DNA of 64,000 nt, from NCBI GenBank assembly GCA_025617745.1, contig CM046864.1, forward strand, positions 24,717,152 through 24,781,151, in the 5' to 3' direction. Positions 3,403-63,764 of the stretch are shown piece after piece; position 1 is the stretch's first letter; every line of letters starts with the position of its first letter. This DNA comes from Heliocidaris erythrogramma. Its lineage: Eukaryota > Echinodermata > Echinoidea > Camarodonta > Echinometridae. Made by a program: the position numbers and the translations under genes. The notes below the pieces were generated by a model. It saw only the letters and a program-made list of their open reading frames with translations. It was not told the DNA's origin and did no database searches.

Positions 3403-3549
3403 GAATTCCGTCCTGTCGCGTTGACAGGACTTTTTCGGCTCAGACCCTTTTACACTCAATACTACATGTAACTTGTTAGGGGGACGCTACCAGCCATTGG
3501 TCACCTACAGTATACACATCCACAGGCACAGGACTGGGGTCGAGAAGCA

Positions 3550-12400: not shown

Positions 12401-12891
12401 CAAGTATGAACCCAGCAGCTTATACTGTTTTGGGGGATCATAATGAGAAGAATGAGCTAAGGTCATTCTGAAATTACAACTAAAGTGTACTACAACAAAC
12501 TCCAGTTAGTCTATAAAGACCCGCAAGAGCTCAAGCTCCAGGGGAGCAATACATTACATGTACCACTGGGGAGCGTTTCACCAAGCGTTTTGTCAGTGAT
12601 TTGTACTGACAAATTTGCTCTCAGCCAATCAGATGCAAGGATTTCAGTAGCTTATAACAGATGTACGTAAAAATCACTGACAAAACGCTTGATGAAATGC
12701 TCCCCAGAGGTACATTATTGTTTAAGATGACAAAAGGAGGATTAGAACTCCACAGAAATTCTTTGAAGGGATTATCTGATTGTCCTACAACTTGGCAACC
12801 TGATTAAGCAACTCCTGGTTATTATTATGCCTCTTTAAGGAAATCCCCCCCTCCCCCCCCCCCCCCCAAAAAAAATAAATAAATAAATAAA

Positions 12892-27900: not shown

Positions 27901-30900
27901 CAGACGATGTCCCATAACATCTTACACATTTTTCAGAGCCTATTTTGTCATCTCCTCTTCACTTATTTCTCTTCCTTCACTAGCGTCAGTCTTAATGTTA
28001 GTCTGTTGCCTCACTCTTAACTTCGTGTATGGTATTATTTTGATGAAATATGCAGCGTTAAAAAAATAAAGGAATCAGTCACTTGTAAACAAAATAAGAC
28101 GCCATTGTATTTTCAGCTGCTTGCACCGGGGCATGTTCGGCGTTTCAAGAGGGAACGAATACCATCCTGCTATTATTCGGAGGGCTTTTCAATTTGAAAG
28201 TGGGGTTTATTTCATTGATCATTGACCCTTCTCCTATGTATTTACAATCAAACGGTTTTAGCTATTAGAATCAGTTTCACTTTCCCTTTATAATGGTGTG
28301 AAATAAGGTCATGTTTAAATACACCAAACTCTTTATAATTTGATAAATAATTGCATTGCAATTACGTTCATTCATTATAGGACGTCGTCTGCTTAAGCAG
28401 GATCGATCCCGAGTGTGACGACATCAAAACATCGCTATATTTCTGGCGAATCCTCGGATATTCCAGATGCTGAGAAGAGCTTTTATTTGTGTTGTTTTTA
28501 TAATCATCAGATACGCAGTTGACATAAAACTTATACGATTGCCATCTGTAAGCTTCCCAGTTTCTAGTGATACATTAATTGCCATATTTGTGATTTTCTT
28601 TGAATATCTACTTTAAATATAAAGCCGAGAATTGAAAGAATGCTTGTCACCAAATTTTCCAGGGCCTTGCATAAAAAGTTGCGATTTTAACACAACTTAA
28701 ACACAACTTAAACCCAACTTGATTTTCAGCCAATCAGGATCGAATATTTTACACTTGCATTTAAATTTTTGAGTTGCCTTTGATTACAATTTTTCATACG
28801 AGAGTGCCCTGGGAACCTGTTTCAGAATAACAACTGCCCCACTTCTATGACAAATTTGCTCTCAGCCAATCAGATTCAAGGATTTCAGTAGCTTATAACA
28901 ATTATTGTAACTCGTTTTTGATGACAAGTTTATGAAAGGGGGCCCTGATCAAGTAAAAGTATAAAAGTGTAGCTGGAGTCTGCTGAATGGTAGAAAAGCG
29001 ACCAGTCAAAAAAAAAAAAAACCCAATTTTTTTTTTCTCTCTCCCTCTAAATTGCTTCTTTTTTTTTGGGGGGGGGGGGGGAGGGAGGATGGGGGTTAAT
29101 GTTGCTTGATATGGACTGTTTTGGAAACAGTGATGATTACATAATGGTTACTTTAATTGATAAGTTCAAGATACTGACAATTGCATTGCTTTCAAAGTTT
29201 CTTTTGATTAGATATGTGTGTTATAGAAGTGAAAAGTAGTTCATAACACAGACAAACATTGTAAATCAACTTTTATTCACCGCTACATGTATGTACCTTT
29301 AATTTTGTAACACATTTCAAATATTTTCTTTCCAGAGAGGATACAAGTGCATATTGGCTCTTGTGATTTTTATCTATAATTATAAATCCAAACAATGTCA
29401 CAGGTCCGCATGTCTTTCCTAATAACTGTAACGCTTGCCATAACCATTCATGGCCTTTAATAGTGGTCTAGGTGTTCTGTTATTGTGTCAGACCTATATG
29501 ATCATGCTCATATATTTTCCTCTCTCTTTTTTTCACTCCATCTTTCCATTTCCCAAGCCCTTTTTTTTCTTCTCAACTCGCATTCATTACCAGGGGAGTA
29601 CAAGGAGATAATACCAGCAAATTAAATTCTCATATTAAGAGTTAATAGACCAGGGGGGCTTTGTGCCGCGAAGCCTCACTCTTGACTGGCAAAGAGTGTG
29701 GCCTTATTGTGGGTATTAATCCGGCACTTAGTGGGGTCGTTGATTCGCGTGAATGTAAGGGGCTTTTGAAAGAATTTGTTATTGTTCGGGGCCCCGCTGG
29801 TTGACGCAGAGGTTTGGATTGTCCCTCGGGCAAGTGAGGGCGAAGGAGAGGGATCAGCTAGTGGGACTAGTTACAGAGGCAGAGAGAGAGAGAGAGAGAT
29901 TGTGTGAGTGAGAATGGGTAAAGGGAGTGTTTCAGATGTACAGCTTAATTTGATTTTGACATTGTGAGGGCTCTGTTTCAAGGTTGAAGATAAAGTTGCG
30001 TTCTGATCATGCAATAGACCTGTTTACAAAGTGATTCAAATTTTATGCATACTTTTGAAACAAAGGTTGTTCTTGACAACCTGAAAGCTTGCCAGACATA
30101 GCAACAAGTAATGTATGCAAACTGGATTCCAAGTATTGTAGTTCATTCATTAATAACAGGTTAATGGAATACCTCGTTACTAGGTCCCCAGGAAAGAAAC
30201 ATCCATAAATTTGAATCACTTTAATAGTAAACAGGTCTATTACATTGTGAAAGAAACTGTCTCAAAGCAATAGACCGCTTCTGTAATGTATACAAATTTA
30301 TGCACATATATTCTCTGAACACCTAGTGACGAGCTATTCCATGAACCTGCTTTTTATAAATGAGCCTCAATGCTTGGAATCCAGTTTGCATACATTATTT
30401 GTTTGCTATGTCCGGCAAGCTTTCAGGTTGTCAAGAACAACCTTTGTTTGAAAGGTATGCATAAAATTTGCAACATTACCGAAGCGGTCTATTGGGAAAG
30501 GTTGATCATGTCTACAGGTGTACATAAATAACTTTATAATACATAACTTTATATCGAAACCTTGTTATATCAGGGCTAAAAAGCAATAGAATACAAAGAA
30601 GTGGGACCAGTAAAAATTACCATGTTATAATGAGAATTTGTTATATCCTTGCTCATTATTACAAGGTTCCACTGTAGCCATTTAGTACCTGGGTCGAGAG
30701 ATAGATTCAAGAAAAAAAATGCCGAAACTCTTTAGGTAGGGATTTGAACCCCCAACCATGAAACTGAAAGTAAAATCTAGTGTTTCAGAAAGGTAGCTTT
30801 GTAGAAATGGGAGAAAATTCTTGCTCATCCATGAGCAAACCCATTGGCCCGACTTCATGAAAGAGAATTATCTTAAAACCTCCATAAGCGTAGTGTGCGC

Positions 30901-33900: not shown

Positions 33901-36900
33901 GTTGTGTGTCCACCTAATGTACCCTTTAGTAATAGGTTATTTTTTGTTCTTTGTACAGGCATAAAGAGATATTGTTGAACTAGTATAGGGTGGTACAGTA
34001 TTTCAAAAGATAGGATCTGCCCTAAAAATACTGGAAAAAGGTGTATTATTGTAAACACCTATTTGGAAAAAGGAGGGAAAATTCAAAAAATTGTATAAGC
34101 CGCATTCTGTTGCTGAAAAAAGAGAGAAGCATTTCCAAATACTTGTTGCATTCTAAAAGTGTAGATACACGTTGACTGGTATTCTGAAAACGATTGTATC
34201 TTTTATGTTAGTAAGACGATGTTAATTGTAACAAATCAAAATTAGGATAAGACATTGGTTAATGTCTCTGCAAAGCTGGCTGCGTTTGCGTAAAATTAAT
34301 AGAGACAACTGCGCGAGCGCCAATGACAAGTGTTTATTCTGCGCAATACCAGTTTGTTATGACAATCAACGTCGTTTTCCTTAACATAAAAGATAACATC
34401 GTTTTCAGAATACAGCCCCTGAATAATTTTTCTGCCAAGAGATGTGGGAGCCAGATGGGCGTTAAATAGCTTTATTATTACATGTATTTAATTCCATTTC
34501 GGCTCTCAGCAATGATAGAAAATGGATAGATAACAATAAGCACTTGTATACACGCTGTTACATTATTATCATCATATCCCATTGTTTCCAAGGTGTTTTA
34601 TCTTCAGTTGCCTCTCTCAACCCAGGGCACTTTATGGGTATCTATATAATACATGTAGGTAATGCCTACTACATGTAGCTGATCATCTTGTCCCATTGCT
34701 ATCGGCGCTTTGTCATGCAGCCGTATCTCATCCCAGGGGAGTGTTTCATCAAGTGTTTTGTCAGTGATATTTACTGACAAATTTGCTCTCAGCCAATCAG
34801 ATGCAAGGATTTCAGTAGCTTATAACAGTTGTCGATAAAAATCACGGACAAAACACTTGAGGAAACGCTCCCCTGTTGTAAAGAATACAATGTAATTACA
34901 TGATATGTTTTTATTATTCTTTGTTTTCTACTGTTTTGCAGCTCTGCTAAAGCTCGTCATGCTTTCAAGATGTTCCACACACCAACACCGCTCAGGCAAT
35001 CAAAGGTAAGTTTACATGTAATTGTCTCATGGGAGTTTGAATAGAAGTGATACACGGACGAAACTGTTCAAATGCATGTGTTGCATAGTGATGAAATATA
35101 TAAAATGACAATAATGGCCCTTGCCATTTTGATTGTATTACATTGCCTACGCTAATCAATTCCATGAAGAGAATAAGTGCATTTCATGATTTGCCAGTAA
35201 TGCAGCTTGCACTGCTCATTAATTAAATGCATTAAAGGGAAACTCCACCCTGGTATTAAATTGATTTGAATAAAATAAGAAAAATGAGAGAAAGGGATTA
35301 GTGACAGTTTGAGCAAAATCAGATAAGAAATAAGAAAGTTACGACTTTTTGAAATTGTAATTAATCAAACGCAAATTGGCAACTCCGTGACCTATCTTGC
35401 GAACTCTTCTCCCATTTGCTCAGTACAGAAACTCTCGTAAATTTTCATTTTTCTCTGTTTTTGATGAAGGAATAGATGTGTTTCATACAGGTTTTGTCTA
35501 AAAACATACGGGCAGTGATTATAGCTATTAAGGTGCATGTATGTTTGAATATTTTCTTTAGATAAAATGGAAATTAATGAGTTGGGGGTACAGGGCAAAT
35601 GGAAGAGGAGCTCGCAAGATACATGTACCTCACAGAGTTGCCAAATTTGTGTTTGATACATTACAACTTCAAAAATTCATAACTTTCTTATCCATTGTCG
35701 TATTTTGCTCAAACCTCCGCTGATCTGTTTCTTTAAATTTGCTGACTTTTAAAATCAACTTGTAATCGGGTGGACTTTCCCCTTTAACTGTTTGTACCAT
35801 GTCACTCTCACATGGCTTGTCCAAGACTGCGATGCAGTCCTTCGTCGAAAGGACGGCTATGTGCAACAGGCATTATCCAAATAAGGGTAGCAAAAAAATC
35901 TATATCTCATGCATGTTCTTGAGAGATCACAATGTTAAAGAACAAAGAATGGGTCCTAGAAGTGGAATCAAATCTACAAGTAACAGGAGAACACTTTAAA
36001 GGTGCACCAAGGAACTGTTCAGTTGCAGTCATGTCATAGGGAAACAGGGGGGCGTTTCATCAAAGGACTTGTCAGACATTTTATCCGACAAATCTGCTCT
36101 CAGCCAATCAGATGCAAGGATTTCAGTAGCTTATAACAGTTGTCGGATAAAATATCTGAAAACTTCCTTTGATGAAACGCTCCCCAGGACCTTGATAGAT
36201 GCATTGACCCATTTCAGATCAGAGTTTTGTTGTGGTCTAAATTAATCAGCTGTCCCTCCTCAAATTGGCAACAATAAATCTTTTTTTCCTTATTAAGTGA
36301 ATAGATGTGAATGAAAATTGCCAATTTGTACACAAATCCCTCGTGTTCTTGAACCACATAAGGAACTGCATTGGAAATAAACTGATTTTTTTTTTAATTT
36401 ATGCTCTTTCTGGAGAGCTTTTCATCAAGTGTTTTGTCAGTGACTTTTACCGACAACTGTTATAAGCTACTGAAATCCTTGCATCTGATTGGCTGAGAGC
36501 AAATTTGTCGGTAAAAATCACTGACAAAACACTTGATGAAATGCTCCCCTGATCTTGTATAATGTGTAATTTGTAGCATTCGGGATCAAAAGATAATGCA
36601 AAAACATCGCTAAAACGAGACACTAAGTGTTAGAAGACAACGATAAACCAAATAGGGGTACATATGTAAACGTACAGTAACCCCCATCTCATATATGTTC
36701 ATGAAAAGCTTATGTTGCCAAGAACAAAGAATGGGCCTGCAAGTGCAATCGAATCTGTAATTGTCAGAGTAAGACCACTTGTACAGTAAGGGGTGAACCA
36801 GAGCACAGTTCAAATGCACTTTTTAGTAGGCGGGATCCACATGTCACTCTGCATCAATCAGTACCAGACCATCTTTTCCGACGTTCTGAAAAGCGGCGCA

Positions 36901-47047: not shown

Positions 47048-47547
47048 NNNNNNNNNNNNNNNNNNNNNNNNNNNNNNNNNNNNNNNNNNNNNNNNNNNNN
47101 NNNNNNNNNNNNNNNNNNNNNNNNNNNNNNNNNNNNNNNNNNNNNNNNNNNNNNNNNNNNNNNNNNNNNNNNNNNNNNNNNNNNNNNNNNNNNNNNNNNN
47201 NNNNNNNNNNNNNNNNNNNNNNNNNNNNNNNNNNNNNNNNNNNNNNNNNNNNNNNNNNNNNNNNNNNNNNNNNNNNNNNNNNNNNNNNNNNNNNNNNNNN
47301 NNNNNNNNNNNNNNNNNNNNNNNNNNNNNNNNNNNNNNNNNNNNNNNNNNNNNNNNNNNNNNNNNNNNNNNNNNNNNNNNNNNNNNNNNNNNNNNNNNNN
47401 NNNNNNNNNNNNNNNNNNNNNNNNNNNNNNNNNNNNNNNNNNNNNNNNNNNNNNNNNNNNNNNNNNNNNNNNNNNNNNNNNNNNNNNNNNNNNNNNNNNN
47501 NNNNNNNNNNNNNNNNNNNNNNNNNNNNNNNNNNNNNNNNNNNNNNN
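47048..47547. other. Assembly gap of exactly 500 N
   Basis: The round length suggests a placeholder. A T-run precedes it and the tail of an array unit follows it, so the left edge of the array is not resolved. Confidence 0.99.
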
Positions 47548-47604
47548 ACAAGAAAGTGGTGGAAAATAAAAATAAACTAGAGTTTAATTCGTCATGAGGA
47601 CGAA

Positions 47605-49426
47605 TTAGATGGTCTGTCTTTCAATTTGTACGATCATGATTGTAATCAGATGATCATAATAATGGGGAAATGCTAAACTGAAGATAGGATGTCAAGAAAT
47701 GCCATGAATGGAGATGCTTCTTGAGGACAAGAATGTAGCAAAATGTGTAACGGTCACTGTAAAAACGATTACGGTGAAGATGATAATGGTGATTATGATG
47801 ATTATAATGATATAATGATGATGGCGATGGATATAATAATAGCGATGATGATCATGACGGTGATGATGATACAGGATACTTGGGAGATTAACCCCATAGC
47901 TCTAATACAGGACAGGAAATCACAATTTCCATAAGGTGTACACAACAACTAGCACATTACTTTCTAATAGACATAACATGGAAAATAAGGCAGTTTATTA
48001 CATGATTTTGTGATTGTTTATGTTATAAAAGTCGAAGAGGATGGTAAAATGGCAGGCAAAAAAAGCAAAAAAAAAAAAAAAAAAAATCGGCCCCGGGGAT
48101 CGAACCTAGGTACCCTTGACCATGGTAGTCATGTGCTTTACCGATAGACTAAAATATTTTCCCATAGAGATAACACGTAAACGAAAAAACAGGATTCTCG
48201 AATCCCATTTGGTATTTCAAAATAGGGGCATCCCGACATCTGATCAAAATTTGGAGACCACCTTACAGAAAGCTTATAGTCTCAGCTACAACATATTAAA
48301 ATCTGGAAGGAAATAGACCAAAAATAACTGAGATACAGCTCAGAGAACGATGTCATGTAGATTCATGATTCGAAAAAAATCATCTTCCATAGACATAACA
48401 CGCAAATAGGGACAATTCTGACATGTCGTCTTTAATTGAAAATTTCAGTTGTGATGACGTCATCCAAATGAAAAAATGAGCACTCATGTTGTAGAGAATT
48501 GTCTTCAGCTATAACATATCGAAATCTGGGCGAAAAACTACCAATAATTAAGAATCTAGAGCCAAATTGCATGAATGTGATGACGTCAAAAACATGAAAA
48601 ATGGAAATTTTGAATCCGGCGCCATTTTGATGACGTCATAATGTATATAAGGGTCAAATGATACATGAAATGAAATCTATGATTTATACCCTACCTGATG
48701 ATGAAAAAAAATTGGGAGGTTTCTGGACTATTTAAAGAGCTAGAGTTAATTTTGTAGAGGCATGTTTTTCACGTTTTTACGTTATTTTTGCCATAGACGC
48801 GCGCACGGATTTTGAAATTTGACGCGCGCGTGTGGCATTATGGAAGGTCGATATTGACTGTAAATAGTTGGAAATTGTCAAGAAATAGTGTCAGGAAGAC
48901 GATACATGCGGAAAAACGCGTTTTTACGTTCTCTATGCGCTGTGCGCGCGCATAACGCGCGCGCGGACGCGCACGGACGGAAAATTTTAAAATGCTTAAA
49001 TGTCCTGAACAATACTCTAATTTGATTAAAAAGTGATTTTGAGCATTTTTAAATTTTGACGCGCGCGTACGTGCGCGTCATGATGTGCGCGCGGATTTTG
49101 ATGACATTTTATGTCGACCCTTGACCTGAATTTAATGTATGTCAAATATGGTTCATTTTTGATGACTCGTTATGAAGATATGATTGATAATGTGATTTCA
49201 CAAAATGGCGCCTGGATGACGTCACGATGACCTGATGACCTTGAAAAAAGATAGGGGAACTTGATCTGATATGGCCTGATAATTGACAAAAATTGAAGAA
49301 AATTGATCGAGTTGATTTTGAGAAATTGTGTCACAAGAAATGTGGTGGAAAAATAAAATAAATAAATAATAATAAAGAAAATTCTGACGAAATTAAGAGT
49401 GGTCGTCGACTACGACAGACCACTAA
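47605..49426. repeat. Array unit 1 (short subtype)
   Basis: It starts TTAGATGGTCTGTC and ends GACAGACCACTAA. The GATGAT segment is short (about 47780-47870). The TGACGTCA octamers are at 48455, 48581, 48631 and 49217. CG-rich blocks lie at about 48795-48830, 48920-48985 and 49060-49095. Confidence 0.88.
48087..48158 (-). repeat. tRNA-like module, unit 1 (type A)
   Basis: On the minus strand it has an A-box-like TAGTCTATCGGTAAAGC and an intact B box GGTTCGATCCC, followed closely by a T-run that could end pol III transcription. A cloverleaf is imperfect. Confidence 0.65.
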
Positions 49427-49453
49427 CTAGATTTTAATTCGTCATGAGGACGA

Positions 49454-51222
49454 TTAGTGGTCTGTCTTTCAATTTGTACGATCTGATTGTAATCAGGATG
49501 ATCATAATAATGGGGAAATGCTAAACTGAAGATAGGATGTCAAGAAATGCCATGAATGGAGATGCTTCTTGAGGACAGGAATGTAGCAAAATGTGTAACG
49601 GTCATTGTAAAACGATTATGGTGAAGATGATAATGGTGATTATGATGATTTATAATGATATAATGATGATGGCGATGGATATAATAATAGCGATGATGAT
49701 CATGACGGTGATGATGATACAGGATACTTGGGAGATTAACCCCATAGCTCTAATACAGGACAGGAAATCATAATTTCCATAGGTTGTACACAAACTACTG
49801 CACACTACTTTCCAATAGACAAAACATGGAAAATAAGGCAGTTTATTACATGGTTTGTGATTGTTTATGTTATAATAGTCGAAGAGGATGGTAAAATGAC
49901 AGGCAAAAAGAAGCAAAAAAAAAAAAAAGAAAAAAAAATCTGCCCCGGGATCGAACCAGGTACCTTGACCATGGTAGTCATGTGCTTTACCGATAGACTA
50001 AAATATTTCCATAGAGATAACACGTAAACGAAAAACAGGATTCTCGAATCCCATTTGGTAGTTCAAAATAGGGCATGATCCCGACATCTGATCAAAATTT
50101 GGAGACCACCTCTATGAAAGCTTATAGTCTCAGCTACAACATATTAAAATCTGGAAGGAAAATAGACCAAAAATAACTGAGATACAGCTCAGAGAACGAT
50201 GTCATGTAGATTCATGATTCGAAAAGAAATCATCTTCCATAGACATAACACGCAAATAGGGACAATTCTGACATGTCGTCTTTAATTGAAAATTTCAGTG
50301 TGATGACGTCATCCAAATGAATAATAATGAGCACTCATATGTTGTAGAGAATTGTCTCAGCTATAACATATCGAAATCTGGGCGAAAAACTACCAATAAT
50401 TAAGAATCTAGAGCCAAATTGCATGAATGTGATGACGTCAAAACATGAAAAATGGAAATTTTGAATTCTGGCGCCATTTTGATGACGTCATAATGTATAT
50501 AAGGGTCAAATGATACATGAAATGAAATCTATGATTTATACTCTACCTGATGATGAAAAAAAATTGGGAGGTTTCTGGACTATTTAAAGAGCTAGAGTTA
50601 ATTTTTGTAGAGGCATGTTTTTTCACGTTTTTACGTTATTTTTGCCATAGCGCGCGCACGGATTTTGAAATTTGACGCGCGCGTGTGGCATTATGGAAGG
50701 TCGATATTGACTGTAAATAGTTGAAATTGTCAAGAATAGTGTCAGGAAGACGTAACATGCGAAAAAACAGCGTTTTTACGTTCTCTACGCGCTGCGTGCG
50801 CGCATAACGCGCGCACGGACGCGCACGGACGGAAAATTTAAAAATGCTTAAATGTCCTGACAATACTCTAATTTGATTAAAAAGTGATTTTGACCATTTT
50901 TAAATTTTGACGCGCAGCGTACGTGCGCGTCATGATGTGCGCGCGGATTTTGATGACATTTTATGTCGACCCTTGACCTGAATTTAATGTATGTCAAATA
51001 TGGTTCATTTTTGATGACTCGTTATGAAGATATGATTGATAATGTGATTTCACAAAATGGCGCCTGGATGACGTCACGATGACCTGATGACCTTGAAAAA
51101 GATAGGGGCACTTGATCTGATATGGTCTGATAATTGACAAAAATTTGATGAAAATTGATCGAGTTGATTTTGAGAAATTGTGTTCACAAGAAAGTGGTGG
51201 AAAAATAAAAATAAATAAAAAC
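49454..51222. repeat. Array unit 2 (short subtype)
   Basis: It is close to unit 1 throughout, with TGACGTCA at 50304, 50433, 50483 and 51069. The right terminus (GACAGACCACCTAA) is missing; the sequence runs into AAATAAAAACTAG. Confidence 0.88.
49939..50010 (-). repeat. tRNA-like module, unit 2 (type A)
   Basis: It has the same boxes as in unit 1, B box GGTTCGATCCC, then a T-run on the minus strand. Confidence 0.65.
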
Positions 51223-51249
51223 TAGAGTTTAATTCGTCATGACGACGAA

Positions 51250-53392
51250 TTAGGTGGTCTGTCTTTCAATTTGTATGGTCATGATCGTAATCAGGATGAT
51301 CATAATAATGAGGAAATGCTAAACAGAAGATAGGAAGTCAAGAATGCCATGAATGCAGATGCTTCTTGAGGACATGAATGTAGCAAAATGTGTGAAGCGG
51401 TCATTGTAAACTGATTATGGTGATGATGATAATGGTGATGATGAAGATGATATAATGATGGTTATAATGAGTATGATGATATAATGATGATGGTGATGAT
51501 ATAATAATAACAGCGATGATGATGATGACAGTGATGGTAATAATGATGATGATGATGTCATGATGATTATGATGGTGATGATAATCACGATAATGAAGGG
51601 GATAATGATGAAGATTGATGATGTGATAATGGTGATGATTATGGTGATGGGGATTATGAAGATGATTGATGATATAATGATGATGATGGTGTTAATGGGG
51701 ATAATGGTGATGACCATGACTGCAATGACAGTGACCTTAACCATGCCAAATATGAAAGAGAAATCACATTTCGTTATGAAGATGCGACAATCAGTTGATT
51801 TGTACAAAATGGCGCCTAGATGCCCTTGAAAAAGATGTGGGAACTTGACCTTATTAGGACCGATGACTGACGAAAATTTGAAGATAATTGAGTAAGCCAA
51901 TTTTGAGAAATTTTGATATCAAATAGGACTAATGATATTGCAGGATAGCTTAAATACACGTCAGGGAATCAAGATTTTCCATAGGTTATACATAAACCAC
52001 CGCACAGTACTTTCCATAGACATAACACGCAAAATAAGGCAGTTTATTTACTTGTTTGTGATTGCTTATGTTATAATAGTCGAACAGATGGTAAAATGAA
52101 AGGCAAAAAGAAGCAAAAAAAAAAAAAAAATTTAATGGACCCACCGGGGATCGAACCTGGGTCACCGGAGTGAGAGGCAAGTGCTTTGACCAATATACCA
52201 AAATATTTCCCATAGAGATAACACGTAAACGAAAAACGGGATTCTCAAATCACATTTTGTAGTGAAAAATTGGGCATGATCCCGACATCTGATCAAAAAT
52301 TGGAGACCACATTTTAAAAGCTTATAGTCTCAGCTATAACATACTAAAATCTGGAAGAAAATAGACCAAAAACAACTGAGATACAGCTCAGAGAACAATG
52401 TCATGTAGATTCATGATTCGAAAAAAAATCATCTTCCATAGACATAACACGCAAATAGGGAAAATTCTGACATGGCATTTTTAATTGAAAATTTCACTGT
52501 GATGACGTCATCAAAATAAAAAATGGTGGGAACTGATTTCGTAGGAAATTGCCTCAGCTACAACATATTAAAATCTGGGCGAAAAACGACTAATAATTAC
52601 GAATCTAGAGCCAAATTTGCATAAATGTGATGACGTGAAAACATGAAAAATGGAAATGTTGACTTCTGGCGCCATTTTGATGACGTCATAATGTTTATAA
52701 GGGTCATATGATACATGAAATCATATCTGTGATTCCTTCTCTACCCAAAGATGACAAAAAATTGGGGGGTTTGTGGACTATTTAAAGAGCTAGAGTTAAT
52801 TTTGTAGAGGCATGTTTTTGCACGTTTTTACGTTATTTTGGCCATAAACGCGCGCACGGATTTTGAATTTTGACGCGCCCGTACGATCTTATTATTGATT
52901 GAAATTGATTCCAAGTTGATGGAAATGATGAAGAAAAGTATCAGGATTGCAAATCAATCAAAGAATCAGCGTTTTAACGTTATTTACGAATTGAGTGCGC
53001 GTAAAACGCGCGCGCGGACGCTTACGCACGGAATTTTTTGAAATGCTCAAAATGACCTGAAACGTGTGCAGACTTGATCCTACGTGATTTTGAGCATTTT
53101 TAAATTTTGACGCGCGCGTACGCGCACGTCCTGACATCTAGATGACCTGTGAGGACATGACTTGATGACCCGTCAAATGAAGTTTATGTGATGTTAATAT
53201 AGTTGAATTTTGATGATCGATCATGAAGATATAATCGATCTTGTAAATTTACAAAATGGCGTCTTGATGACGTCACGATGACCTGATGACATCCAAAAGC
53301 TTAATGGACCATGTCCATGATTGACCTCATACATGACATGAAACTCAATGATATTGACCTGGCCGATTTTGAGATTTGATGGCACAAGAATT
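51250..53392. repeat. Array unit 3 (long subtype)
   Basis: The GATGAT segment is longer (about 51415-51715). It is followed by an extra part containing ACAAAATGGCGCC that resembles the 3' part of a unit. TGACGTCA occurs at 52503, 52681 and 53268; the second site of the short units has become TGACGTGA. The right terminus is missing. Confidence 0.87.
52137..52204 (-). repeat. tRNA-like module, unit 3 (type B)
   Basis: The minus strand reads TGGTATATTGGTCAAAGCAC, GCCTCTCACTCCGG, then B box GGTTCGATCCC and CGGTGGGTCC, followed by a long T-run. The CTCTCAC loop resembles tRNA-Glu(CTC). The 5' acceptor strand does not pair with GGGTCC, so it is tRNA-derived rather than a functional tRNA. Confidence 0.68.
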
Positions 53393-54255
53393 TGCAACTA
53401 GAGTTTAATTCGTCATGACGACGAATTAGGTGGTCTGTCTTTCAATTTGTATGATCATGATTATAATCAGGATGATCATAACAATGGGGAAATGCTAAAC
53501 TGAAGATAGGAAGTCAAGAATGCCATGAATGGAGATGCTTCTTGAGGACAGGAATGTAACAAAATGTGGGAAACGGTCATTGTAAAATGATTATGGTGAT
53601 GATGATAATGGTGATGATTATAATGATATAATGATGGTTATAATGATTAGATTGATATTATGATGATGGTGATGATATAGTAATAATAGCGATGATGATC
53701 ATAACGGTGATAATAATAATTGATGATGTTGATGTTGGTGATAATCATGATGATGATGATGATGTAATGATGATTATGATGGTGATGATAATCATGATGA
53801 TGAAGGTGATAATGATGATTATTGATGATGTGATAATTGTGATGATTATGAAGATGATGATATAATGATGATGATGGTGATGATGATGGTAATGGTGGGG
53901 ATAATGGTGTTGACATGACTGCAATGACAGTGACCTTAACAATGCCAAATATGATAATGGTGATGATTATGATGATGGTTATAATGATTATGATGATCCC
54001 TGATAGCAGAAAATGTTTAAAATGACGTGATATTTGCGTCGTGGTTTGGTTTATTTTACGTCTTGTAATTACGTCAATAAGACGACAACTTGCACCAGCG
54101 CAAGACATCAAGAGGACGTCTTATTTTGACGTCATCTCTACGTCTTGTATACTGTAAAAACTAAAGTGCTACTTTTATGGGCATATATAGTGACTGCACC
54201 TGAAATGCTGTTTATAGCACTTGTAGTGTGCTAATTTACCAGCAAAAAAAAAAAA

Positions 54256-54330
54256 CGTGACCGTGGCGAGCCTCGAACCAGGTTCCGCTGATTGAGATGC
54301 GCTGACCTTACCGATGGACTAGCGAATGCT
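54256..54330 (-). repeat. Degenerate tRNA-like segment in middle element
   Basis: The minus strand reads TAGTCCATCGGTAAGG (A-box-like), AACCTGGTTCGAGGCTCG (B-box-like), then a T-run of 12. It is similar in layout to the modules of the surrounding array. Confidence 0.5.
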
Positions 54331-54519
54331 TCTTGCAATCCAGTTTAGTCATGGGAGTCAAGTAGATAACATGAACTATGTGGTGTCGTAAATTCACTAT
54401 GTAACAATATGATCTGCTCTAAATAATACAATGTGAGTTAGTCTAGCGGTAATGCCAGCAATTCTCGATCAGCGGACCCTGGCTCGCCCAAATCATTTTT
54501 TTAATGAATGTTTAGCAGT

Positions 54520-55426
54520 TTAAAGTAGAACGTTAATGATTTTAAATATTGGCTTAATACTTATTATTGCATAGATGGCATAAATTAAACAAGGTTATCC
54601 AAATTCAACGCTTGGAAACATTTGAAGTAATGATTATTATCAATTATAAAACGGTAAAATACAGCCCCCGATATAGCAGCTGAAGAGCTCCTCGAACGCT
54701 GCTGAGATATGTGACGACACACCATGGACCAGTCCTGTCTAAGCAGACGATGTCCCATAACATCTTACACATTTTTCAGAGCCTATTTTGTCATCTCCTC
54801 TTCACTTATTTCTCTTCCTTCACTAGCGTCAGTCTTAATGTTAGTCTGTTGCCTCACTCTTAACTTCGTGTATGGTATTATTTTGATGAAAAATGCAGCG
54901 TTAAAAAAATAAAGGAATCAGTCACTTGTAAACAAAATAAGACGCCATTGTATTTTCAGCTGCTTGCACCGGCGCATGTTCGGCGTTTCAAGAGGGAACG
55001 AATACCATCCTACTATTATTCGGAGGGCTTTTCAATTTGAAAGTGGGGTTTATTTCATTGATCATTGACCCTTCTCCTGTGTATTTACAATCAAACGGTT
55101 TTAGCTATCAGAATCAGTTTCACTTTCCCTTTATAATGGTGTGAAATAAGGTCATGTTTAAATACACCAAACTCTTTATAATTTGATAAATAATTGCATT
55201 GCAATTACGTTCATTCATTATAGGACGTCGTCTGCTTAAGCAGGATCGATCCCTTGTGTGACGACATCAAAACATCGCTATATTTCTGGCTATTATTTGT
55301 GTTGTTTTTATAATCATCAGATACGCAGATGACATAAAACTTATACGATTGCCATCTGTAAGCTTCCCAGTTTCTAGTGATACATTAATTGCCATATTTG
55401 TGATTTTCTTTGAATATCTACTTTAA
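54520..55426. mobile_element. Inner TTAA-flanked element, copy B
   Basis: It is nearly identical to 27677-28616, with the same TTAA edges and the same 62-codon open frame. It lacks about 33 bases present in copy A. Flanking sequences differ entirely, showing transposition. Confidence 0.9.
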
Positions 55427-56237
55427 GGAGCCGGTCCAGCTCCCGTGAAAGTGCTGAAATAGCACGCTGTGTGCATTCAATAGCACTCTGAGTGCAGTCC
55501 CAATGCATGCCCACAAAAAGTGCTATATACAGCACTTCAGTTTTTACAGTGTACAGATGACGTCAAAATAAGACGTCCTCTTGACGTCTTGCGATGGTGC
55601 AAGTTGTCGTCTTATTGACGTAATTACAGGACGTAAAAAAGACGAAAACCACGACGTAAATATCACGTAATTTTTAACACTTTCTGCTATCAGGGATATA
55701 ATGATGGTGATGATATAATAATAGGGATGATGATCATAACGGTGATGATAATAAAGATGATGTTGATGTTGGTGATAATCATGATGATGATGATGATGAT
55801 GTAATGATGATTATGATGGTGATGATAATCATGATTATGAAGGTGATAATGATGATTATTGATGATGTGATAATTGTGATGATTATGGTAATGGTGATTA
55901 TGAAGATGATGATATAATGATGATGATGGTGATGATGATGGTAATGGTGGGGATAATGGTGTTGACCATGACTGCAATGACAGTGACTCAACCATGCCAA
56001 ATATGAAAGAGAAATCACATTTTGTTATGAAAATACGACCATAAATTGATTTTTACAAAATGGCGCCTGGATGACGTCACGATAATCTGATGACCTTGAA
56101 AAAGATGCGGGGACTTGACCTTCTTGGGACTGATGACTGACGAAAATTTGAAGATAATTGACTAAGCCAATTTTGAGAAATTGTGATATCAAATAGCACT
56201 ATTTGACAGTGTAGGATACTTTGGAGATAAACCCAAT

Positions 56238-56549
56238 GGCCCGTATTCTGAACTCCGGTTTAACTTAAACCGTGGTTGAAATCTGTGGTTTAACTATGGG
56301 TAGCCAAAAATGTCAAAACTGTGTTTACACTGTATGTTCCTTATGTTTTCAGGATACTGGTCTCGTGCTTTAATGGTCAAGAAAAATATTCTACTTATCA
56401 TTCCCAGACAGTTTTTAAAAGCTTGAGTACCAAAAATGCTGACAAATTGAATATCTACTGTTTGAAATTTGTGTCACATTTGGCTGCCCATAGTTCAACC
56501 ACACATTTAGACCATGGTTTAAGTTAAACCGGAGTTCAGAATACGGGCC
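56238..56549. mobile_element. MITE with GGCCCGTATTCTGAAC ends, inside array unit 4
   Basis: GGCCCGTATTCTGAACTCCG and CGGAGTTCAGAATACGGGCC are exact inverses, and pairing continues through GGTTTAACTTAAACC. Other array units run uninterrupted at this point, so the insertion site is defined. Confidence 0.92.
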
Positions 56550-56743
56550 AATAGCTTTAATACACGACAGGCAATCACAATTTCCATAGGGTTGTACACA
56601 AACTACTGCACACTACTTTCCAATAGACATAACATGCAAAATCAGGCATTTTATTACTTGGTTTGTGATTTTTTATGTTAAAATAGTCGAACAAGATGGT
56701 AAAATGACAGGCAAAAGGAAGCAAAAAAAAATTTTTTTTTAAT

Positions 56744-56811
56744 GGACCCACCGGGGATCGAACCTGGGTCACCGGAGTGAGAGGCAAGTGCTTTGACCAA
56801 TATACCACAAT
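56744..56811 (-). repeat. tRNA-like module, unit 4 (type B)
   Basis: It is identical in layout to unit 3, with B box GGTTCGATCCC and T/A runs next to GGGTCC on the minus strand. Confidence 0.68.
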
Positions 56812-58107
56812 ATTTCCCATAGAGATAACACGTAAACGAAAAACGGGATTCTCAAATCCCATTTTGTAGTGAAAAATTGGGCATGATCCCGACATCTGAT
56901 CAAAAATTGGAGACCACACTTATAAAAGCTTATAGTCTCAGCTATAACATACTAAAATCTGGAAGAAAATAGACTAAAAACAACTGAGATACAGCTCAGA
57001 GAACAATGTCATGTAGATTCATGATTCGAAAAAAAATCATCTTCCATAGACATAACACGCAAATAGGGAAAAAATCTGACATGGCATCTTTAATTGAAAA
57101 TTTCACTGTGACGACGTCATCAAAATGAAAAATGGTGACGACTGATTTTGTAGGAAATTGCCTCAGCTACAACATATTAAAATCTGGGTAAAAAACGACC
57201 AATAATTACGAATCTAGAGCCAAATTTGCATAAATGTGATGACGTGAAAACATGAAAAATGGAAATTTTGACTTCTGGCGCCAATTTGATGACGTCATAA
57301 TGTTTATAAGGGTCATATGATACATGAAATCATATCTGTGATTCCTCCCCTACCCAAAGATGACAAAAAATTGGGGAGTTTGTGGACTATTTAAAGAGCT
57401 GGAGTTAATTTTGTAGAGGCATGTTTTTGCACGTTTTTACGTTATTTTGGTCATAGACGCACGCACGGATTTTGAACTTTCACGCGCCCGTACGACCTTA
57501 TTATTGATTGAAATTGATTCCAAGTTGATGGAAATGATGAAGAAAAGTATCAGGATTGCAAATCAATCGAAAAAACAGCGTTTTAACGTTATCTACGACT
57601 TGCGCGCGCGTTTTACCCGCGCGCGGACGCTTACGCACGGACATTTTTGAAATGCTCAAAATGACCTGAAACATGTGTAGACTTGATCCTACGTGATTTT
57701 GAGCATTTTTAAATTTTGACGCGCGCGTACGCGCACGTCCTGACGTCTAGATGACCTGTGAGGACATGACTTGATGACCCGTCATGTGAAGTTAATGTGA
57801 TGTGAATATAGTTGATTTTTGATGATCGATTATGAAGATATAATCGATCTTGTAAATTTACAAAATGGCGTCTTGATGACGTCACGATGACCTGCTGACC
57901 TCCAAAAGCTTAATGGACCATGTCCATGATTGACCTCATACATGACATGAAACTTGATGATATTGACTTGGCCGATTTTGAGATTTGGTGGGAACAACAT
58001 TTTGTATTAAAAAGAAATAAATAAAGAAAAATCTTGACAAAATTAAAAGGAGGTCTGTCATAAATGACAGACCACCTAACTAGAATTTAATTCGTCATGA
58101 GGACGAA

Positions 58108-59923
58108 TTAGGTGGTCTGTCCTTCAATTTGTACGATCATGATTGTAATCAGGATGATCATAATAATGGGGAAATACTAAACTGAAGATAGGATGTCAAG
58201 AATGCCATGAATGGAGGTCCTTCTTGAGGACGGGAATGTAGCAAAATGTGTAACGGTCATTGTAAAATGATTATGGTGATGATGATAATGGTGATTATGA
58301 TGATTATAATGATATATGATGGCGATGATATAATAGCGATGATGATCATGACAGTGATGATAATAATGATGATGATACAGGATACTTGGCAGATTAACCC
58401 CTTAGCTCTAATACAGGACAGGAAATCACAATTTCCATAGGGTTGTACACAAAACTACTGCACACTACTTTCTAATAGACATAATACGGGAAAATAAGGC
58501 AGTTTATTACATGATTTGTGATTTTTTTATGTTATACTAGTCGAAGAGGATGGTAAAATGACAGGCAAAAAGAAGCAAAAAAAAAAATCGTCCCCGGGGA
58601 TCGAACCAGGTACCTTGACCATGGTAGTCATGTGCTTTACCGATAGACCAGAATATTTCCCATAGAGATAACACGTAAACGAAAACGGGATTCTCAAATC
58701 ACATTTTGTACTGAAAAATTGGGCATGATCCCGACATCTGATCAAAAATTGGAGACCACACTTGTAAAAGCTTATAGTCTCAGCTACAACATATTAAAAT
58801 CTGGAAGAAAATAGACCAAAAATAACTGAGATACTGCTCAGAGAACGATGTCATGTAGATTCATGATTCGAAAAAAAGTCATCTTCCATAGACATAACAC
58901 GCAAATAGGGAAAATTCTGACATGGCGTCTTTAATTGAAAATTTCACTGTGATGACGTCATTAAAATGAAAAATGGTGGCAACTAAATTTGTAGGAAATT
59001 GCCTCAGCTATGACATATCAAAATCTGGGCGAAAAAAGACCAATAATTACGAATCTAGAGCCAAATTTGCATAAATGTGATGACGTCAAAACATGAAAAA
59101 TGGAAATTTGGATTTCTGGTGCCATTTTGATGACGTCATAATGTTTATAAGGGTCAAATGATACATGAAATCATATCTATGATTCATACCCTACCTGATG
59201 ATGACAAAAAATTGGGAATTTATGGACTATTTAAAGAGCTAGAGTTAATTTTGTAGAGGCATGTTTTTGCACGTTTTTACGTTATTTTCGCCATAGATGC
59301 GCGCACGGATTTTGAAATTTGACGCGCCCGTACGACCTTATTATTGATTGAAATTGATTCCAAGTTGATGGGAATGATGAAGAAAAGTGTCAAGATTGCA
59401 AATCAATCGAAAAAACAGTGTTTTAACGTTATTTACGACTTGCGCGCGCGTAAAACGCGCGCGCGGACACTTACGCACGGACATTTTTGAAATGCTCAAA
59501 ATGACCTGAAACGTGTGCAGACATGATCCTACGTGATTTTGAGCATTTTTAAATTTTGACGCGCGCGTACGCGCACGTCCTGACCTCTAGATGACCTGTG
59601 AGGACATTGCTTAATGACTCGTCATTTGAAGTTTATGTGATGTGAATATAGTTTATTTTTGATGATCGATTATGAAGATATAATCGATCTTGTAAATTTA
59701 CAAAATGGCGTCTTGATGACGTCACGATGACCTGATGACCTCCAAAAGCTTAATGGACCATGTCCATAATTGACCTCATACATGACATGAAACTCGATGA
59801 TATTGACCTCGCCGATTTTGAGATTTGGTGGGAACAAAAATTTGTTATAAAAATAAATAATAAAAATAAAGAAAATCTTGACAAAATTAAAAGGAGGTCT
59901 GTCATAAATGACAGACCACCTAA
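58108..59923. repeat. Array unit 5 (short 5' part, long-type 3' part)
   Basis: The GATGAT and tRNA-like parts match units 1-2, but the 3' part (ACGCGCCCGTACGACCTTAT and onwards) matches units 3, 4, 6 and 7. It is therefore a mosaic. GCGCGCGCG, TAAAA, CGCGCGCGC at 59442-59464 is a perfect 9-bp hairpin. Confidence 0.87.
58588..58660 (-). repeat. tRNA-like module, unit 5 (type A)
   Basis: It matches units 1-2, with B box GGTTCGATCCC on the minus strand. Confidence 0.65.
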
Positions 59924-59951
59924 CTAGAATTTAATTCGTCATGAGGACGAA

Positions 59952-61832
59952 TTAGGTGGTCTGTCTTTCAATTTGTATGATCATGATCGTAATCAGGATG
60001 ATCAAAATAATGAGGAAATACTAAACTGAAGATAGGAAGTCAAGAATGCCATGAATGGAGATGCTTCTTGAGGACATGAATGTAGCAAAATGTGTGAAAC
60101 GGTCATTGTAAAATGATTATGGTGATGATGATAATGGTGATGATGAAGATGATATAATGATGGTTTTAATGAATATGATGATATAATGATGATGGTGATG
60201 ATATAATAATAATAGCGATGATGATCATGACAGTGATGATAATAATGATGATGATGTAATGATGATTATGATGATGATGATAATCATGATAATGAAGGGG
60301 ATAATGATGAAGATTGATGATGTGATAATGGTGATGATTATGAAGATGATTGATGATATAATGATGATGGTGATAATGATGATAATGATGGGGATAATGG
60401 TCATGACCATGACTACAATGACAGTGACCTTAACCATGCCAAATATGAAAGAGAAATCACATTTCGTTATGAAGATACAACCATAAGTTGATTTGTACAA
60501 AATGGCGCCTAGATGACGTCATGATAACCTGATGACCTTTAAAAAGATGTGAGAACTTTACCTTATTAGGACCGATGACTGACGAAAATTTGAAGATAAT
60601 TGACTAAGCCAGTTTTGAGAAATTGTGATATCAAATAGGACTAATGATATTGCAGGATAGCTTTAATACACTTCAGGGAATCAGATTTTCCATAGGGTTA
60701 TACATAAACTACTGCACACTACTTTCTAATAGACATAACATGCAAAATAAGGCATTTTATTACTTAGTTTGTGATTTCTTATGTTAAAATAGTCGAAGAA
60801 GATGGTAAAATGAAAGGCAAAAAGAAGCAAAAAAAAAAATTTTTTTTTAATGGACCCACCGGGGATCGAACCTGGGTCACCAGAGTGAGAGGCAAGTGCT
60901 TTGACCAATATACCAAAACATTTCCCATAGAGATAACACGTAAACGAAAAACGGGATTCTCAAATTACATTTTGTAGTGAAAAATTGGGCATGATCCCGA
61001 CATCTGATCAAAAATTGGAGGGCTTACTAATAAAAGCTTATAGTCTCAGCTACAACATATTAAAATCTGGAAGGAAATAGACCAAAAATTACTGAGATAC
61101 TGCTCAGAGAACGATGTCATGTAGATTCATGATTCGAAAAAAAAATCATCTTCCATAGACATAACACGCAAAAAGGGGAAATTCTGACATGGCATCTTTA
61201 ATTGAAAATTTCACTGTGATGACGTCATCAAAATGAAAAATGGTGATAACTGATTTTGTAGGAAATTGCCTCAGCTACAACATATTAAAATCTGGGCGAA
61301 AAACGACCAATAATTACAAATTTAGAGCCAAATTTGCTTAAATGTGATGACGTCAAAACATGAAAAATGGAAATTTTGAATTGTGGCGCCATTTTGATGA
61401 CGTCATAATGTTTATGAGGGTCAAATGATACATGAAATCATATTTATGATTCATACCCTACCTGATGATGAAAAAAAATTGGGGGGTTTATGGACTATTT
61501 AAAGAGCTAGAGTTAATTTTGTAGAGGCATGTTTTTGCATGTTTTTACGTTATTTTCGCCATAGATGCGCGCACGGATTTTGAACTTTGACGCGCCCGTA
61601 CGACCTTATTATTAATTGAAATTGATTACAAGTTGATGGAAATGATGAAGAAAAGTGTCAGGATTGGAAATCAATCGAAAAAACAACGTTTTAACGTTAT
61701 TTACGACTTGCGCGCGCGTAAAACGCGCGCGCGGACGCTTACGCACGAACATTTTTGAAATGCTCAAAATGACCTGAAACGTGTGCAGACTTGATCCTAC
61801 GTGATTGTGAGCATTTTTAAATTTTGACGCGC
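59952..61832. repeat. Array unit 6 (long subtype, 3' truncated)
   Basis: It follows unit 5 with the normal spacer. It stops in the block TTTTGACGCGC, where the sequence jumps into the tRNA-like module of another unit. Confidence 0.87.
60852..60918 (-). repeat. tRNA-like module, unit 6 (type B)
   Basis: It matches units 3-4, with one change (TCTGGTGACC for TCCGGTGACC). Confidence 0.68.
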
Positions 61833-63134
61833 GGAGTGAGAGGCAAGTGCTTTGACCAATATACCAAAATTTTTCCCATAGAGATAACACGTAAGCGAAA
61901 AACGGGATTCTCAAATCCCATTTTGTAGTGAAAAATTGGGCATGATCCCGACATCTGATCAAAAATTGGAGACCACATTTATAAAAGCGTATAGTCTCAG
62001 CTATAACATACTAAAATCTGGAAGAAAATAGACCAAAAACAACTGAGATACAGCTCAGAGAACAATGTCATGTAGATTCACGATTCGAAAAAAAAATCAT
62101 CTTCCATAGATATAACACGCAAATAGGGAAAATTCTGACATGGCATCTTCAATTGAAAATTTCACTATGATGACGTCATCAAAATGAAAAATGGTGGTAA
62201 AATTTTTGTAGGAAATTGCCTCAGCTACAACATATTAAAATGTGGGCGAAAAACGACCAATAATTACGAATCTAGAGCCAAATTTGCATAAATGTGAGAC
62301 GTCAAAACATAAAAAATGGAAATTTTGAATTCTAGCGCCATTTCTATGACGTCATAATGTTTATAAGGGTCAAATGATACATGAAATCATATCTATGATT
62401 CATCCCCTACCCAACGAGGAAAAAGAATTTGGGGGTTTATGGACTATTTAAAGAGCTAGAGTTAATTTTGTAGAGCATGTTTTTGCACGTTTTTACGTTA
62501 TTTTCGCCATAGACGCGCGCACGGATTTTGAACTTTGACGCGCCCGTACGACCTTATTATGGATTGAAATTGATTCCAAATTGATGGAAATGATGAAGAA
62601 AAGTGTCAGGATTGCAAATCAATCGAAAAAACAGCGTTTTAAGGTTATTTACAACTTGCGCGCGCATAAAACCCGCGCGCGGACGCTTACGCACGGAAAT
62701 TTTTGAAATGCTCAAATGACCTGAAACGTGTGCAGACTTGATCCTACGTGATTTTGAGCATTTTTAAATTTTGACGCGCGCGTACGCGCACGTCCTGACT
62801 CTAGATGACCTGTGAGGATATGACTTTATGACCCGTCAAGTGAAGTTTATGTGATGTGAATATAGTTGATTTTTGATGATCGATTATGAAGATATAATCG
62901 ATCTTGTAAATTTACAAAATGGCGTCTTGATGACGTCACGATAACGTGATGACCTCCAAAAGCTTAATGGATCATGTTCATGATTGACCTCATACATGAC
63001 TTGAAACTCGAAGATATTGACATGGCCGATTTTGAGATTTGGTGGCCACAAGAATTTGCCTTAAAAAGAATAAATAAAAAGAAAAATCTTGACAAAATTA
63101 AAAGGAGGTCTGTCATAAATGACAGACCACCTAA
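61833..63134. repeat. Array unit 7 (5' truncated)
   Basis: It starts inside a long-type tRNA-like module (GGAGTGAGAGGCAAGTGCTT) and continues to a complete right terminus ending at 63134. The sequence beyond is unrelated. Confidence 0.87.
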
Positions 63135-63764
63135 TTACAATTACCGTTAATGTTATGAATTTCATTAAACAGTGATCCATTCACAGATATACATTTTAAT
63201 ATTTATGCTTATATCATTTATATAATGAAATACTTTTTTGTTGGTTTAAGCATCATATAAATCATCAAGGTGAGTGTAATGAATGACATAGAAGTTATAG
63301 GCATAAAATCAGGTTACATTTACTTTAATTTGTTGTGAATCTAAACTGAATGCAAACATTGGAAGTGCTGGTATCGTCGATTATCGATATATCATTGGAA
63401 ATGTGCATTGTTCAGAAATGTGAATCAATGAACATTAGAATAAATAAACATTACAACATTATTACAATCATTAATTGCTATGTAATCTACCTGATCGATT
63501 ATGAAGCCCTTCCGCAGTTATTTTGTGAGTATATCATAGCATAATGTGTTTTATGCATAAATTAGCATAAATTAATATTAAGATGAAGCAAAATGAATTG
63601 ATGATTTCATGAATTAGCATTTTTAAATAGGGTGCCATTCACACATTTCCAGGCTAAAATTTACGCTTTTAATACATATGACTCACGTACCAAAAATTGC
63701 GCTTTTGTAAATTCTGTCTCCAAAATTTTAACAGAGCTGACTATGCAGTGATTCCCGGATGACG
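63135..63764. other. No feature seen
   Basis: AT-rich, apparently single-copy DNA right of the array. No gene is supported. Confidence 0.5.

Follow-up and report, generated by a model that had tools for sequence, protein, structure and literature searches.

What is the repeating unit of a long tandem array in the sea urchin Heliocidaris erythrogramma, and how did whole copies of it come to stand head to tail? The array occupies positions 47548-63134 of the 64,000-nucleotide stretch analyzed here (the window; GenBank assembly GCA_025617745.1, contig CM046864.1, positions 24,717,152 to 24,781,151). A first-pass annotation described it as a macrosatellite whose unit looks like a mobile element bounded by terminal inverted repeats (TIRs), with neighboring units joined by a constant spacer. 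Our analysis agrees that the unit resembles a mobile element. The features of its sequence suggest, with a probability of about 0.82, that it belongs to the non-autonomous rolling-circle transposons of Helitron2 type and is oriented on the minus strand. With the strand and the terminus corrected, the apparent "TIR element with constant spacer" becomes a member of a known rolling-circle group, not a new kind of element; this identification reaches the group level only, not a particular family.

Terminal structure of the array units

The array starts directly to the right of a gap of 500 N (47048-47547), which forms its left edge, and it has a clean right border. Its extent and head-to-tail arrangement were confirmed. 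At least seven copies are present, lettered A to G from the left, all on the minus strand. The 14-bp motif TTAGGTGGTCTGTC, allowing up to two mismatches, occurs eight times in the window, each time inside the array; 0.30 occurrences were expected, and 0/100 shuffles reached eight. Unit A is represented by its last visible 29 nt (47548-47576; 5′-truncated start TTTATTTTTATTTTCCACC...), the remainder lying in or beyond the gap. It is followed by B (47577-49426; 1850 bp), C (49427-51221; 1795 bp), D (51222-53397; 2176 bp), E (53398-58079; 4682 bp), F (58080-59923; 1844 bp) and the rightmost unit, G (59924-63134; 3211 bp). A unit size of 1.8-2.6 kb, as first proposed, fits most of these but not E and G, both of which are longer. 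E owes its length to two later nested inserts and a duplicated (ATG)n-like stretch, and G is a fused unit that contains about 950 bp in two copies. Both ends are intact in E, F and G. B retains a diverged 5′ end (TTAGTGGTCTGTCGTAGTCGACGACCACT), C is 5′-truncated with its first base aligning near position 60 of B, and D, whose 3′ end is intact, starts with TT|GCAAATTC and, by comparison with G, lacks about 75 bp at the 5′ end.

Read on the minus strand, the right-hand end of a unit is its 5′ end. At 63134, 59923 and 58079 this end reads TTAGGTGGTCTGTCATTTATGACAGACCTCC, in which the 14-bp repeat and the pairing partner that follows it form a hairpin. The repeat itself, a 5′ asymmetrical terminal inverted repeat (5′-ATIR), lies at 58066-58079 in E, at 59910-59923 in F and at 63121-63134 in G, where it marks the outer 5′ end of the array; a 13-nt variant is found in B (49414-49426). 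The terminal hairpin of G (63103-63134, minus strand) holds most of the 5′-ATIR and has a predicted energy of -11.2 kcal/mol (z-score -7.58). All four intact 5′ ends fold in this way (z-scores -5.12 to -7.58), and in no case was any of 200 shuffles as good. The left-hand, or 3′, end carries the inverse repeat GACAGACCACCTAA followed by 28 bases, which read TTCGTCCTCATGACGAATTAAATTCTAG in F and G and hold a second stem-loop. The 3′-ATIR was located at 58108-58121 in F (minus strand) and at 51250-51263, 53426-53439 and 59952-59965, with variants at 47605-47618 (one mismatch) and, in unit C, at 49454-49466 (one base shorter). In F, the 28-nt terminus (58080-58107, minus strand) consists of the hairpin TTCGTC-CTCAT-GACGAA and then TTAAATTCTAG, and close copies of it stand at the five other junctions; the distance from the 3′-ATIR to CTAG is 28 nt in both F and G. 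The stem-loop is found at 6/6 3′ ends, five of which gave z-scores of -3.65 to -4.01 with 1/200 shuffles as good. Pairing of the two ATIRs was also evaluated with 2000 mononucleotide shuffles of the first 40 and last 60 bases of F; none reached 14, the longest being 13.

The six junctions show where a unit ends. The sequence up to CTAG is common to all of them, and the sequence after CTAG varies: TTAGGTGG (E, F), TTAGTGG (B), TTGCAAATTC (D) or T-rich sequence (C, A). CTAG is abutted by intact 5′ ends from both families and by two types of truncated 5′ end, and the terminus of the unit must therefore lie at CTAG. The outer right flank, GGTAATTGTAA|TTAGG (GTAA|TTAGG on the minus strand), lacks both the 28 nt and CTAG. 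Together with the shared CTAG side, this places the 28 bases in the unit's own 3′ end. Neighboring units therefore join directly, as CTAG|TT, with no foreign spacer. TT follows CTAG at 6/6 junctions and can be assigned to neither side, with the exception that at D it mismatches the corresponding bases of G (TT|GCAAATTC versus AAG|GCAAATTC). These results retain much of the first-pass annotation while changing its interpretation. The constant hairpin-bearing stretch of about 28 bases was indeed recovered at 6/6 visible junctions, with none at the rightmost outer end, but it is the element's own 3′ terminus and not captured flank. The inverse ends described as exact are so at 58066, 59910 and 63121 only; the 13-nt version in B is diverged, and the repeat is absent at the junctions at 47575, 51220 and 53396. 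The join between neighbors is constant, in place of varied target sites, as had been described.

A cut-and-paste miniature inverted-repeat transposable element (MITE) would offer another reading of these ends. It would have short TIRs (GGTGGTCTGTC) and possibly a TA target duplication, and a copy would have been amplified as a satellite together with 28 nt of flank. E, F and G have exact inverse repeats, and GGTGG is bordered on its outer side by TA at both ends of F and at the array's right border, although this TA is part of the ATIR. Three junctions that lack the right-hand repeat nevertheless begin exactly at CTAG, which shows the 28 nt behaving as a terminus, and the outer right flank is without them. 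Only one of the two repeats pairs with the bases downstream of it in a hairpin, and that hairpin shows covariation. We consider a MITE origin improbable and rejected a cut-and-paste element as the preferred reading, since one repeat lies 28 nt inside a terminus that several partner sequences place at CTAG; the 14-bp pair does not form the outer ends of such a transposon. Several Helentron-derived elements had likewise been annotated as MITEs, according to the sections of PMC4067079 used here.

Assignment to an element group

Our comparison with the literature draws on parts of six papers (PMC4067079, PMC8268682, PMC3627910, PMC5148889, PMC12628747 and PMC5876387), and statements about published elements are limited to those parts. 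Helitron2 elements are described as having a 5′ T and a 5′-ATIR of 8-15 bp located 0-2 bp from the 5′ end, which forms a 5′ hairpin, and a 3′-ATIR that immediately precedes the 3′ hairpin, at 20-30 bp from the 3′ end (PMC3627910). The array units have the same plan. They begin with T, their 5′-ATIR falls within this size and distance and forms a hairpin with the bases downstream of it, and the 3′-ATIR lies within the 20-30 bp range directly upstream of a 3′ hairpin. Insertion is reported to occur after T-rich or TTTT sequence, as a rule without a target-site duplication for full-length copies, while 5′-truncated copies of the Chlamydomonas families CRe-1, 2 and 3 often have duplications of 7-19 bp (PMC3627910). 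The copies of these three families are often 5′-truncated and almost all keep the 3′ end, a bias taken to reflect copying from the 3′ end (PMC3627910). For the group as a whole, the literature has not settled at which end copying starts. In the array, 3′ ends are present in 6/6 visible cases and 5′ ends are truncated in 3/7, counts that come from units of one array and hence from non-independent events. Truncation at the 5′ end with 3′ ends kept is thus common to both.

Compensatory changes that keep hairpin and ATIR pairing have been reported for one pair of Helitron2 families (PMC3627910), and similar changes were seen here in a single comparison, of B and C with E-G, as we read the hairpins. 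Although the 5′ segment of B shares only 69.4-70.5% identity with those of units D-G, its 5′ end retains the ability to fold (z-score -5.12). Relative to E-G, one A-T pair of the hairpin has become G-C, one pair is gone on both sides, and a T-T mismatch has become T-A. The base absent from the 5′-ATIR of B is also absent from the 3′-ATIR of its sister unit C (TTAGTGG/CCACTAA), and the 3′-ATIR of B itself has a substitution instead of a base loss.

Other element classes were weighed against the same ends. Canonical Helitrons (Helitron1) need a 5′ TC and have no 5′ hairpin, whereas the array units have TTAGG and a hairpin, and this class was rejected for the unit. The 3′ feature of canonical Helitrons, CTRR with a nearby hairpin, is shared, with CTAG at 6/6 3′ ends. 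A hammerhead-ribozyme satellite was considered because of GAGGACGAA within the 28 nt, which we took to be hammerhead-like. Rfam gave no support for this: no match in the window reached a gathering score, and no hammerhead appeared at E ≤5 in 47548-63200. A literature search with three end motifs of 14-17 nt did not find the unit's own family; what it retrieved concerned insect chitinases. A family that could not be recognized at first can now be given a group, the Helitron2 type, without a named family. Two end motifs (22 and 20 nt) had no exact match in viral_contigs, a long shot for a eukaryotic repeat.

Several observations weigh against the assignment. The 3′ hairpin of C is weak (z-score -2.01, 10/200 shuffles as good), and one stem base of the 5′ hairpin of B has no partner. 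When overlapping 44-nt windows of F were ranked by RNA energies, its terminal hairpins were outranked by internal stretches (5′ end 23rd and 3′ end 176th of 1801). Hairpin strength by itself would therefore not identify the ends; position, ATIR pairing and junction evidence do. No RepHel or transposase was found among the 26 of 54 listed open reading frames (ORFs) of at least 100 aa in the window that were scanned with Pfam, and no solo copy of the unit occurs in the window outside the array, where the matches correspond to a nested insert. On the target side there is a single visible outer flank, the right one, which reads GTAA|TT on the minus strand; the left end lies in the N gap. The Pfam scan included all seven array ORFs outside the gap. 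None had a match above curated cut-offs, only weak sub-threshold matches (E 0.023 to 0.34), in agreement with the earlier view that the unit encodes no protein.

Growth of the array

Identity between units ranges from 69 to 98% by pair and segment, and the units are not near-identical. Two 5′ families can be recognized. B and C (family I) are 97.4% identical in the 5′ segment, and D, E, F and G (family II) 92.8-94.6%, with 69.2-70.5% between the groups. The groups are 89.1-91.7% identical in the 600-1250 segment. Over the last 200 bp, identity between groups (92.0-95.0%) is about equal to that within family II (91.7-95.6%). Two diverged 5′ families with near-uniform 3′ ends mean that no single unit was simply multiplied. 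At least two versions of the element are present in the array and have since recombined. F is a mosaic: its 5′ half is of family II, but its 1250-1520 segment resembles B (89.1%) and C (94.3%) more than it does D, E and G (80.7-86.4%). In G, an out-of-register join near 61833/61841, close to a GACGCGCG stretch, connects positions of the unit that are separated by about 950 bp. An assembly artefact is unlikely; units differ by 2-31% by segment, and nested inserts occur in E alone among the visible units.

In the mechanism that we propose, a RepHel protein made elsewhere in the genome would copy one of the strands from one hairpin-bearing end to the other, the ATIRs, by pairing with each other, would help to mark where copying ends, and the copy would insert into a T-rich or TT target. 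Less certainly, the array may have arisen through this rolling-circle activity of the element, either by repeated insertion or from a multi-copy rolling-circle product. If new copies kept inserting at the TT that adjoins the 5′ end of an older one, each insertion would re-create TT and fix the orientation. Recombination between units, seen in the B/C pair, the F mosaic and the G fusion, and two unrelated insertions would have followed. Ordinary cut-and-paste transposition does not suffice to explain the array, as had already been recognized. Amplification through a circle or by unequal crossover, suggested at the same time, was a reasonable idea apart from its inclusion of flank.

One explanation, which we hold tentatively, at somewhat less than even odds, is serial insertion: separate Helitron2-type copies would have inserted one after another, each at the TT directly adjoining the 5′ end of the copy before it. 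It fits the TT found after CTAG at every junction, including the mismatch at D, and the presence within one array of two 5′ families that differ by about 30%. Helentrons and DINE-1 have been described as preferring TT (PMC4067079), and insertion-site preference is reported as a main cause of transposable-element dimers (PMC12628747). However, the TT at C and A is uninformative, being within T-rich sequence, and pairwise identities show no age gradient from one end of the array to the other. Duplication within the array is suggested by how closely B resembles C (95.5% overall; 97.4% in the first segment and 98.0% in the second) and by the similar way in which A and C are truncated.

Alternatively, a rolling-circle concatemer or multi-unit circle may have been inserted at once and diverged later. 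The precise CTAG|TT joins and the roughly equal 5′-segment distances among family II units are consistent with such an event. Arrays of this kind have been described for plant Helitrons (PMC12628747), and joined-end amplicons are known from one Fusarium Helitron2-type subgroup, for which circles were unconfirmed by rolling-circle amplification (PMC5148889). A single event cannot, however, yield two 5′ families that are 69.2-70.5% identical, and many plant arrays are reported to combine multiple 5′ ends with one 3′ end, a pattern opposite to that of the array described here (PMC12628747). We regard this origin as unlikely.

Unequal crossover or replication slippage acting on a chance dimer, with the transposition machinery playing no part, is still rather doubtful but deserves slightly more credence. 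The G fusion, the F mosaic, the B/C pair and the like truncation of A and C all indicate recombination between units. Nevertheless, a starting dimer with an exact terminus-to-terminus join would be needed, which is itself best explained by transposition, and there are several junction types, each ending exactly at CTAG. Two further points have to be set against growth by the element's own activity: the B-C pair resembles a later local duplication, and the near-equal family II distances fail to separate serial insertion from a single concatemer event. On balance, we lean toward the element's own activity as the source of the array; unequal crossover may have shaped it later, or may even have driven its growth. 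A more specific proposal, that one-ended copying anchored at the 3′ end, as published for solo Helitron2 elements, here builds a Helitron2-type macrosatellite of whole elements, with the element repeatedly targeting TT at its own end, is speculative and in our judgment quite unlikely.

Other features of the array and the window

Both later inserts lie in unit E. An unrelated TIR element occupies 53998-55695, bounded by CCCTGATAGCAG and the inverse of this sequence; these ends do not occur elsewhere in the window. About 0.9 kb of this element is 98.6-99.0% identical to window positions 27677-28616, in two pieces. Capture of nearby host DNA by the element is one possible reason, a repeat shared by both sites another. 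The second insert (56238-56549) is MITE-like, bounded by GGCCCGTATTCTGAACTCCGG and its inverse (ends GGCCCGTATTC), with AAT flanking both sides. An (ATG)n-like microsatellite stretch lies near the 3′ end of F (58267-58376), with further (ATG)n-like stretches in other units at 47775-47870, 49622-49718, 51412-51713, 53587-53888, 55701-55940 and 60113-60390; the stretch is locally duplicated in E.

The motif GGTTCGATCCC closely precedes a T-run on the minus strand of all six long units (48096, 49947, 52147, 56754, 58597 and 60862), in two sequence contexts, one in B, C and F and the other in D, E and G. GGTTCGA occurs in a similar setting at 54273, within the nested TIR element of E. We presume that GGTTCGATCCC resembles a tRNA B-box, and it is kept as a motif only. 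A tRNA-derived internal segment was rejected: ARAGORN found no gene in the window, and Rfam gave no tRNA in the array at a gathering score or at E ≤5. Scans of small stretches (60830-60940, 49920-50025 and 54235-54360) also listed no tRNA; leaving aside one overlapping match from the clan of beta_tmRNA, the nearest match listed was tmRNA_permuted at 14.8 bits against a gathering score of 47.

To the left of the N gap, a strongly self-complementary MITE-like family of about 140 bp (CATCAAGTGTTTTGTCAGTGA...) is present in at least six near-full copies (9972-10111, 10811-10950, 12568-12706, 34734-34873, 36045-36185 and 36411-36553), with fragments near 6532, 13657, 28848 and 37983. The ORF at 8976-9311 matched RabGAP-TBC (E 2.3e-07), the sole match above cut-off among the 26 ORFs scanned. 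ORF fragments at 3480-5205 resemble, by eye, a decayed non-long-terminal-repeat reverse transcriptase (e.g., NYRPISL and LFADDS); the pieces tested had no Pfam match at E ≤0.01. Other tandem repeats lie at 18542-19111 (243-bp unit, 2.3 copies at 99%) and 24283-24896 (170-bp unit, 3.6 copies at 89%).

Comparison with known systems

Helentrons and their gene-less HINE and DINE derivatives are placed with the Helitron2 group, and the Helentron/HINE class is defined by a Rep/Helicase partner with a fused AP endonuclease. HINE and DINE-1 elements, as described in PMC4067079, are like the array units in being gene-less and in having subterminal repeats (palindromic in some families), a 3′ palindrome and an internal microsatellite; they also show a preference for TT or T-rich targets and are known to form clusters. 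In mite HINEs the 3′ repeat lies about 38-60 bp from the 3′ end, compared with 28 in the array units (PMC4067079). The Helitron2 group itself (with non-autonomous members such as Helitron-1N1_CRe and CRe-1, 2 and 3; Bao and Jurka 2013, PMC3627910) has the same end plan and 5′-truncation bias. In contrast to what is described for that group, the units here stand head to tail, their 3′ end is CTAG(TT), and there is no RepHel partner among the ORFs scanned. In two subgroups of fungal Helitron2-type elements, both ends likewise have ATIRs and hairpins, and three tandem copies are reported from Metarhizium acridum; the fungal elements code for RepHel, whereas the present array is longer and gene-less (PMC5148889). 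For the Fusarium subgroup, tandem insertion was judged unlikely by the authors (PMC5148889).

Tandem Helitron arrays have already been published for plants, bat and silkworm. Truncated plant Helitron arrays are also head to tail and were attributed to rolling-circle amplification (Xiong et al. 2016, as cited in PMC12628747 and PMC8268682). Many of them keep multiple 5′ ends and one 3′ end, while here all six visible 3′ ends are kept and three of seven 5′ ends are truncated; if 3′-anchored growth were true, it would produce the reverse of the polarity of those many plant arrays. Satellite-like arrays are likewise tied to oyster Helitron/Helentron elements, where central repeats form arrays of internal monomers, in contrast to the whole element repeated here (PMC8268682). 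Within a single stretch of DNA, the H. erythrogramma array illustrates how Helitron2-type elements can seed a satellite of long units, and its junction types would allow serial insertion, concatemer insertion and crossover to be distinguished in a search of the whole genome.

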